Source of the DNA: a bacterium
GTDB taxonomy: Bacteria > SM23-31 > JAUVVT01
Reading direction: 5' to 3'
DNA length: 8,151 nt
Assembly (NCBI GenBank): GCA_030616165.1
Contig: JAUWXV010000167.1
Span: 1-8,151, forward strand
Positions 42 through 7,862 of the stretch are shown here, one piece after another. Positions within the stretch are counted from its first letter, which is position 1; the number at the start of each line of letters is the position of its first letter. The notes under the pieces were generated by a model. The model saw only the letters and a program-made list of their open reading frames with translations, made no database searches and had not been told where the DNA came from. A program made the position numbers and the translations under genes.

Positions 42-360
42 AAGACTGATGAATAGTGTAAATATTCAATTTATTAAACCATTTTATTAAATTTTGAAAT
101 ATAAATTTTTTTTGTATCGCAATTTTTGGGTAATATATATATAATTTTTTCAGTAGACTCTAAGAAATAGTTTTTATTAGAAATAAATTTAATGAAACAA
201 ATATTTATGAATTATTCAGGTTATTTGAATTTTTGTTTTTATTTTCAGAAATTTTGAATATTTTCATTCTCAAAATAATTCCTTATTGGTTTCAACATTC
301 TAACTAATTTTAAGTTTTAAGAAACTATTATTAAAAAAATGATATTTTATAAGAAATTAT
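42..360. other. AT-rich non-coding leader
   Basis: About 320 bases with no credible reading frame on either strand and no RNA-like conserved structure that I can recognise. It is almost wholly A/T with many homopolymer runs. It ends where the promoter of the M14 peptidase gene begins. Confidence 0.5.
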
Positions 361-3208: not shown

Positions 3209-3706
3209 ATGAAAAAAAATATAAATTCGCGTAGGGGTGAACTTGTTCACCCTGATGATTATTTTTCCTATCGAAAGAATTCTTTGCGTTTAAAAAACTT
3301 TGATTATCGCTTGCCTGGTCCTTATTTTGTTACAATCTGCACAAATAAAAGGATAAATTTGTTTAAATGTTCTACTGTTCGTGATAAACTGACAGAGATA
3401 ATTAAAACCGTAGGGTCGGATTTATCCGCCCAAATCCATAGCATTTCTATTGCCACAGACCATATTCATGGACTATTCAGTTTACCGGAAGACAAAAAAG
3501 TTTCTTTATCTAAATTTGCAGCAATAACAAAAGTTCGCATAACACAATTTTTCCGAGAAGGGCGGGTAAACCCGCCCCTACGCGTATGGCAGCGAGGATT
3601 TTATGACCATGTGATAAGGAATGAAAATGATTTTTTAGAGAAAGTACAGTATATGGAAAATCATCCAATAAAAGAAGAAAGCAATACTTACATTGAGTGG
3701 CATTGA
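3209..3706 (+). CDS. REP-associated tyrosine transposase (RAYT, Y1/HUH family)
   Basis: 165 residues. The family signature LRLKNFDYRLPGPYFVTICT lies at residues 26-45, the metal-binding HUH pair is H85/H87 (ATDHIHG), and the catalytic tyrosine is probably Y132 in VWQRGFYDHVIRNE. YMENHP (148-153) matches the usual C-terminal YIexNP motif. Family members are single-strand DNA endonucleases that recognise REP hairpins with a GTAG foot, and they usually occur as single chromosomal copies. All key residues are present, so the enzyme may be active. Two stretches look inserted relative to the family core: residues 7-15 (SRRGELVHP) and 118-125 (GRVNPPLR). Both are translated REP-like palindromes, annotated separately. 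The start is ATG 3209, the only ATG upstream of the core. It lacks a Shine-Dalgarno sequence. TGTTAAAAT (3190-3198) could be an extended -10 giving an almost leaderless mRNA, but there is no good -35. TTG 3284 is a less likely start. Confidence 0.9.
   Translation: MKKNINSRRGELVHPDDYFSYRKNSLRLKNFDYRLPGPYFVTICTNKRINLFKCSTVRDKLTEIIKTVGSDLSAQIHSISIATDHIHGLFSLPEDKKVSLSKFAAITKVRITQFFREGRVNPPLRVWQRGFYDHVIRNENDFLEKVQYMENHPIKEESNTYIEWH
3228..3252 (+). repeat. REP-like hairpin within the RAYT coding region, element 1
   Basis: The foot CGCGTAGGGG (3228-3237) contains GTAG at 3231-3234. The hairpin is GGGTGAAC (3235-3242), loop TT, GTTCACCC (3245-3252), a perfect 8-bp stem. It is read in frame as residues 7-15 of the transposase, ahead of the conserved core, where family members need no such sequence. 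It has the same length and foot as element 2 in the opposite orientation. Confidence 0.8.
3560..3584 (-). repeat. REP-like hairpin within the RAYT coding region, element 2
   Basis: Read on the minus strand, the foot CGCGTAGGGG (3584 down to 3575) with GTAG leads into GGGCGGGT, a TT-containing loop and ACCCGCCC. On the + strand the arms are GGGCGGGT (3560-3567) and ACCCGCCC (3570-3577), a perfect 8-bp stem. It encodes GRVNPPLR (118-125), placed between the HUH motif and the catalytic tyrosine without disrupting either. It is inverted relative to element 1. Confidence 0.85.
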
Positions 3707-3779
3707 TAATTTTTGCGAGATGGGCGGGTAAACCCACCAGAGGCGGACAAGCCCGCCCTAAGAATATGGCATTGACAAT
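3698..3779. repeat. 13-base direct repeat flanking the composite REP element
   Basis: TGGCATTGATAAT (3698-3710) contains the last two codons and the stop of the RAYT gene. TGGCATTGACAAT (3767-3779) repeats it with one mismatch. Between them lie 56 bases that hold the double hairpin. This is what insertion with target duplication, or slippage, would leave. One alternative is that the right copy is partly element sequence, because TATGGCA also follows element 2 (3585-3591). Confidence 0.55.
3722..3759 (-). repeat. Composite (two-hairpin) REP-like element downstream of RAYT
   Basis: Two hairpins stand in tandem: 3723-3738 (GGCGGGT, AA, ACCCACC) and 3742-3757 (GGCGGAC, AA, GCCCGCC). Each has one C-A or A-C mismatch on the + strand. 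On the minus strand both mismatches become G-T(U) wobbles and both loops read TT, so the minus strand is the structured one, as for element 2. The minus-strand foot is TTAGGG in place of GTAGGGG. The outer GGGCGGG and CCCGCCC arms (3722-3728 and 3752-3758) could also pair with each other. Confidence 0.75.
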
Positions 3780-6295: not shown

Positions 6296-6403
6296 AATTA
6301 AGGATAAGATATATCGTGTTCTAAATATTTCTGAATGAGTCAAAATTATTTTTATATTATTGTGGAATCTGAATTTTTTTTGTGAATAAGGTTAAGATGT
6401 TAA

Positions 6404-6429
6404 TAGGACAGACAAGAATGTCTGTCCTA
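6404..6429 (-). repeat. REP-like palindrome with GTAG foot
   Basis: TAGGACAGACA (6404-6414), loop AGAA, then TGTCTGTCCTA (6419-6429), a perfect 11-bp stem. Read on the minus strand it begins GGTAGGACAG, so GTAG (6430 down to 6427) sits at the foot as in REP sequences. The stem is unrelated to those in the RAYT gene. Confidence 0.8.
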
Positions 6430-6457
6430 CCAAATAAATATTCTGAATCACGCACTT

Positions 6458-7494: not shown

Positions 7495-7776
7495 TCATCT
7501 GTTGCATGATTCTGTTTTTAAAGTTAACCTTACAATGATTCTGACATCACCCGGTTTCGCTTTCTTTGTTGACTTTATTAGAAAAAGTGCTTTATACACT
7601 TCACTTTTCATTAACTTATTGAAAGAGGTGCATTCTTGAGATGAAATTTCACACCCTTCCAGGAATATTAATTTAAAACTCCACTCATAAACCGGTTCAT
7701 AATCATCCTTTAAATCACTATTTTTATTACTTCCACATTTTCAATGCAAAATATCAATGCTTTTATTTTAGAAGGA
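7495..7776 (-). pseudogene. Possible decayed minus-strand gene
   Basis: On the minus strand a frame is open for 81 codons (7740 down to 7498, stop TGA at 7497-7495). Its composition is protein-like: DYEPVYEWSFKLIF, then KAKPGDVRIIVRLTLKT near the end. It has no start codon in its first half (first Met at codon 44). A second minus-strand frame, encoding KIKALIFCIENVEVIKIVI, runs in from the MITE side and stops at 7712-7710, overlapping the first by 28 bases. One small indel would join the two. This fits a frameshifted remnant cut by the element at 7777-7862. No family is recognised, and an unused chance frame is a real alternative. Confidence 0.25.
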
Positions 7777-7862
7777 TGCTGAAAAAGTAGATTACCACGT
7801 CCCGAGTACTCGGGACGTGGCAATCTCGCCTCAAATTGACTATTTATTTGACTTTTTCAGCA
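7777..7862. mobile_element. MITE-like element with 12-bp terminal inverted repeats
   Basis: TGCTGAAAAAGT (7777-7788) and ACTTTTTCAGCA (7851-7862) are perfect inverted repeats bounding 86 bases. The interior carries a near-perfect 38-bp palindrome and no reading frame. TGCTGAAAAAGT-type ends resemble those of some insertion sequences, but I cannot assign a family. No clear target-site duplication is seen at the borders. An element of this form would be non-autonomous and moved in trans. Alternatively, it is one long imperfect stem-loop. Confidence 0.6.
7789..7826. repeat. 38-bp near-perfect palindrome with adjacent GTAG
   Basis: The arms 7789-7807 and 7808-7826 are reverse complements except for A7794 against C7821, with no loop. 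The core is CCACGTCCCGAGT and its complement, much more GC-rich than its surroundings. GTAG at 7787-7790 overlaps the left foot, as in the REP-like elements near the RAYT gene. Confidence 0.8.

Follow-up and report, generated by a model that had tools for sequence, protein, structure and literature searches.

In-frame REP hairpins in a RAYT gene and their probable relation to the ends of the element

Results

The window analyzed here, a stretch of 8,151 nucleotides from a bacterial genome (GTDB lineage SM23-31, contig JAUWXV010000167.1), contains a RAYT (TnpA-REP) gene whose reading frame passes uninterrupted through three GTAG-footed hairpins, REP1, REP2, and REP3 (Table 1). Sequence comparison with the nearest relatives suggests that REP1 and REP3 form the two ends of the element itself. 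An earlier note on this DNA had cited the Rickettsia palindromic elements as precedent for in-frame palindromes. REPs in the frame of a RAYT gene are not a new phenomenon, and the direct precedent concerns RAYT genes themselves: subclass 2.4 RAYT genes hold internal REPs that leave the frame intact and generally lie in the stretch from HUH to Y (Quentin et al. 2018, PMC6006769). In the open-access literature, we found no other paper on REPs inside RAYT genes.

Table 1. Features of the RAYT gene, its hairpins, and related repeats (window positions unless a contig is given)
Feature	Position	Strand	Basis or counterpart
RAYT (TnpA-REP) gene, 165 aa	3209..3706	+	HUH motif DHIH, WQ, Y148; PF01797, NF047646, and 4ER8 matches
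REP1: CGC-GTAG foot and hairpin, in frame near N terminus; probable left-end REP	3228..3252	+	Counterparts in L114 and L115
REP2: third in-frame REP, one broken pair, GTAGGGTCGGATTTATCCGCCC	3410..3431	+	Intact in paralogue L040
HUH motif DHIH codons, residues 84-87	3458..3469	+	Alignment
REP3: probable right-end REP, inverted and in frame; falls in the helix C-strand 4 loop	3560..3584	-	Different REP at same L114 site
Codon of probable catalytic tyrosine Y148 (invariant residue)	3650..3652	+	Alignment; Y motif assignment per PMC6006769 Table 1
Segment past gene end: copy of REP3 neighborhood (TTTTTGCGAGA..REP..GAATATGGCA) joined to gene tail, absent in paralogue	3695..3765		blastn
Dispersed repeat with decayed RAYT DNA and HUH codons, mostly beside internal REP, ending in CTTTTTTCAGTAGACCCTAA	C42:19.4-19.7k, C121:12.1-12.4k, C140:12.7-13.0k, C302:24.8-25.0k, C136, C86, C147, C301, C317		L194-L205

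The RAYT identity proposed in the earlier note, with intact catalytic residues, was upheld by profile, alignment, and structure comparisons. The open reading frame (ORF) matched the Y1_Tnp profile PF01797 with 37.3 bits and the NCBI REP-associated tyrosine transposase model NF047646 with 73.6 bits, about 6 bits below its cutoff of 80, and a profile of the window protein and 18 relatives matched the E. coli RAYT structure 4ER8 at 1e-20. The predicted fold of the window protein, with a pLDDT of >90 over most of the core, superposes on 4ER8 at 2.4 Å (Foldseek, 4.2e-08). In the alignment, the HUH motif is DHIH, Y148 is invariant, and the W motif corresponds to W127. The protein therefore has the Y1 HUH transposase domain with the HUH, W, and Y motifs that characterize the RAYT/TnpA-REP family, and its gene is tied to genome-repeated GTAG-footed REPs, as is also expected of that family. 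Individual loci and their open frames served to assess gene context. The same genome carries a paralogue that is 85% identical (L040, C302:9014-9508) as well as other RAYTs, and a 5'-truncated RAYT copy in which the REP1 loop is expanded by 12 bp (GGGTGAACCCGAAGGGTAGGCTTGTTCACCC) lies at C259:24372-24557 (L086).

The two 25-mers described in the earlier note, now REP1 and REP3, lie at the places and on the strands given there, both fold as hairpins, and their four compensated inner pairs are as described. The description was nonetheless incomplete, since a third REP (REP2) was missed, as was a degenerate, expanded REP just past the stop codon (3722-3761). In a blastn comparison, C283:3708-3738 matched positions 440-470 of the paralogue query at 94%. 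As single-stranded DNA, REP1 and REP3 fold into 7- to 8-bp stems (-6.2 and -9.0 kcal/mol, with z scores of -3.1 and -2.7, respectively). Synonymous-codon shuffles of the window ORF never produced two such hairpins (0/3000) and produced one in 37/3000, which, together with the shuffles of the RAYT survey described below, excludes a chance palindrome. In the predicted structure, the REP1 residues are disordered and REP2 and REP3 occupy surface loops, REP2 lying between the helix at residues 55-71 and the strand at residues 75-81, ahead of the HUH motif. The paralogue also has three GTAG hairpins in frame; its REP2 is perfect, its REP1 has a 7-bp stem, and its REP3 carries TTC in place of CGC before GTAG. 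REP1, REP2, and REP3 of the window gene do not match one another.

From the alignment, a clean 24-nt insertion was rejected, as REP2 brings no length change relative to L114, the closest homologue, and REP3 brings only 1-2 residues. Since only these 1-2 residues are added relative to most homologues, the REP3 "insertion" may be a replacement. REP1, for its part, may be sequence of the 5' flank into which the ORF extends and not an insertion. A codon-substitution comparison of the REP1 segment, aimed at whether it is translated, gave only a few changes (2 synonymous and 4 non-synonymous codons in 25).

The earlier note had also suggested a search of the source genome for further copies of the pattern. 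The 22-nt pattern GTAGGGGN5TTN5CCC was found in 52 copies in the 3.74-Mb window genome, against 0-1 for the reversed control, and the hairpins are thus members of a REP family spread over the genome. The counts in five further genomes of this class were 0, 0, 0, 1, and 3; the genome with 3 copies is from the same family as the window genome and gave no RAYT match. A more generic pattern, GTAGGGGN{11,15}CCC, gave too high a background in relatives for reliable REP counts in several genomes. Among 15 distinct REP variants, double changes occurred at 4 of 8 pairs, 94% of cells pair, and 18 cells changed on both sides; this covariation score was reached by 0/500 shuffles, with only the five inner pairs being informative because the search pattern fixed the outer G/C bases and the TT loop. 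The idea that the folded structure is kept while the sequence changes thus holds across the variants. The compensated differences between REP1 and REP3 need not have arisen in the gene, however, because both stem types already recur as identical copies elsewhere in the genome; with both subtypes so common, in-place compensatory evolution is superfluous as their source.

In the window genome, 44 distinct REP sites were examined. Only 5 of them lie in a frame of >105 codons, and all five are in the two RAYT genes, which make up about 1 kb of 3.7 Mb; none of the 39 examined REPs outside these genes lies in such a frame. CGC precedes GTAG at 8 of roughly 45 sites examined (about 36/44 without CGC). 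Since most dispersed copies lack CGC and the genome has other RAYTs, any assignment of the whole dispersed family to the window RAYT is tentative. Several other repeats were observed in this genome. On C6 and C112 (L009-L011, L023-L025), several GTAGGGGCGAATTTATTCGCCC copies that have their flanks in common (ccatgaccc...tctttatt) lie only a few kb apart, as an array-like REP subfamily. Within the window, positions 6399-6432 form a palindrome (TAGGACAGACAAGAATGTCTGTCCTA) with a GTAG/CTAC foot, also present in L021 and L041, that is probably another double-foot REP family, and positions 7776-7862 hold a unit of MITE-like form in which TGCTGAAAAAGTAG ... GACTTTTTCAGCA enclose a perfect CACGTCCCGAGTACTCGGGACGTG palindrome.

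The earlier note had proposed an alignment with close homologues to see whether some lack the hairpin residues. The protein of L114 (49% identical) begins after the REP1 position and so lacks the residues that REP1 would encode; 7 bp ahead of the L114 ATG there is a REP that shares the REP1 foot (CGCGTAGGGG), and the REP3 site is occupied by a REP of the same kind with a different sequence. L115 carries one CGCGTAG REP in frame at its N-terminal end and the inverted counterpart 34 bp beyond the stop. In these nearest relatives, the left REP is thus found near the start codon, whereas the right one falls within the gene or shortly after it. REP1 (+) and REP3 (-) of the window gene are likewise inverted relative to each other, with REP3 inside the gene. 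The CGCGTAG foot is present on 6/6 REPs, i.e., two each of L114, L115, and the window gene (its intact REPs), and is rare among the sites examined in the window genome, which is why we read REP1 as the left end of the element, probably its flanking REP, and REP3 as the right end. Di Nocera et al. (PMC3733652) also describe repeats at the flanks of RAYT genes that extend into the 5' or 3' end of the gene. Phylogenetic analysis places the window gene, the paralogue, L114, and L115 in one clade (100/98), which branches inside a 55-row clade where 44/55 have in-gene REPs, against 4/31 in the other clade.

In a survey of 88 RAYT ORFs, which are homologues of the window gene and not a random sample, 70 hairpins were found in 49 ORFs, against 1-4 in synonymous shuffles, and this enrichment recurs across phyla. 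REPs before the HUH motif are mostly in the (+) orientation (16 to 1). After it, 38/43 REPs precede the helix C lysine; besides the window gene, its paralogue, and L114, only two others have a REP after this lysine. Three Clostridia-type genomes provided 14 RAYT genes, in several of which the REPs were placed inside the gene by search coordinates. Within each of these genes, the two REPs are the same or almost the same (mean edit distance, 0.57). REPs of different RAYTs in the same genome are separated by an edit distance of 8.4, and 0/100000 permutations were as close as the true pairs. Such matched pairs fit one REP family per enzyme, and selection, gene conversion, and repeated local copying are all compatible with them. 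Clostridia genomes G147, G149, and G150 (L223-L246) have several RAYT paralogues apiece, and every one of these genes contains a matched inverted REP pair of its own.

RAYT coding DNA is also found away from the RAYT genes. At least 9 other genome sites carry the coding stretch of the HUH motif, usually beside REP2 and with an inverted REP next in line past a deletion of ~73 bp. Read in the RAYT frame, the fragment consensus is R-I-H-C-A-V-T-A-stop-D-R-I-H-stop-L-F, compared to R-I-H-C-V-V-I-A-V-D-H-I-H-G-L-F for the same stretch of the paralogue. Since the fragment frame has stops and the paralogue is intact, the direction is from gene to repeat. These decayed fragments, most of them beside an internal REP, lend indirect support to the suggestion that the transposase could move its own coding DNA. 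They appear, however, to have been carried within a different repeat that has ends of its own, and perhaps reflect one export event and not ongoing movement; their full-length copies lie in this larger repeat, which ends in ...CTTTTTTCAGTAGACCCTAA and may have done the spreading. At window positions 143-163, TTTTTTCAGTAGACTCTAA is a near-match to the right end of the RAYT-fragment repeat and a possible solo end.

Discussion

Taken together, we consider it probable that the window holds a REPtron, a RAYT gene that carries REP hairpins of its own, in which REP1 and REP3 are the element ends and the right end now lies inside the gene. By analogy with E. coli TnpA-REP, the protein would recognize the GTAG-footed hairpin as single-stranded DNA and would copy or move REPs plus some adjoining DNA. 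If it prefers sites near its own gene, REPs would settle in or beside that gene wherever frame and fold tolerate them, and the right end of the inverted REP1/REP3 pair would in this manner have come to lie in the gene ahead of the catalytic tyrosine. The biochemistry of the E. coli system (PMC8266576) is the source from which we infer that the protein may also cut or regulate its own gene.

Other origins for the in-gene REPs were weighed against the REPtron. Palindromes arising by chance from codon usage have practically no probability, being refuted by the codon shuffles and by the identical copies found genome-wide. It is quite unlikely that the in-gene REPs are passive survivors, with REPs inserting anywhere, a few in-frame ones persisting in dispensable loops, and the RAYT gene acting as a neutral host. 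REPs in unrelated genes of several species have been published and their neutrality argued (PMC3733652), and the predicted disorder or loop position of the hairpin residues would agree with such tolerance. Passive survival nonetheless sits poorly with the 0/39 examined non-RAYT REPs in frames of >105 codons, against five in two RAYT genes, and with the recurrence of the enrichment across phyla.

Doubtful, but conceivable, is that selection keeps the in-gene REPs as self-regulatory sites, either because the protein binds the hairpins of its own gene or mRNA or because RNA or DNA structure tunes expression, so that each RAYT would have a matched cognate pair. The closeness of the pairs in the 14 RAYT genes relative to those of paralogues would be expected on this basis, as would the orientation bias before the HUH motif; yet gene conversion or repeated local copying also yields matched pairs, and in the window gene the three REPs are unmatched and REP2 has a broken pair while its frame is undecayed.

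What looks new here is the REP3 site, the lineage with the extended foot CGCGTAG, the matching of in-gene REPs in other RAYTs, and the export of coding fragments. These observations bear on the spread of REPs and on what links a given RAYT to a particular REP family. A gene with REPs inside it joins enzyme and substrate in one sequence, the comparison of in-gene and dispersed REPs makes cognate pairs assignable by computation, and the RAYT-derived fragments represent one route from gene to miniature repeat. As a speculative generalization that we hold only tentatively, RAYT genes in many phyla would hold a cognate inverted REP pair in their own coding sequence, matched within the gene and distinct from those of paralogues; the substrate would be built into the gene, where it could act as an address or as a switch that limits the enzyme itself, and gene pieces bounded by REPs could seed new non-autonomous repeats.

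Compared to known systems, the window gene shares with TnpA-REP subclass 2.4/Bertels RAYT group 4 the Y1 HUH transposase, the WQ motif, and GTAG REPs with a G-C bottom stem that lie in the gene with the frame undisrupted, including one between HUH and Y. It differs in its HUH motif (DHIH instead of NH[IFV]H), in its Y motif (YMENHP, or YIENHP in the paralogue, instead of YIxNNP), in the position of REP3, which follows helix C (residues 100-117) instead of lying between strand 3 and helix C, in the almost complete lack of added length, and in its extra N-terminal REP. Judged by its DHIH motif and its REP3 position, the window lineage is not a clean 2.4 member. E. coli TnpA-REP (PDB 4ER8) and its REPtron resemble the window RAYT in fold, GTAG-footed REP, HUH motif, and tyrosine, whereas the E. 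coli REPs are bulged and flank the gene instead of lying inside it, and the proteins are 25% identical. REPINs and BIMEs, which are inverted REP dimers, have in common with the window family that inverted REP pairs are dispersed in the genome; unlike them, some units of the window genome hold decayed RAYT coding DNA between the REPs. Finally, Rickettsia palindromic elements and other intragenic REPs (PMC3733652) are also palindromes in frame in genes, but they are found in many unrelated genes, whereas in the window genome, among the sites examined, only RAYT genes carry them.
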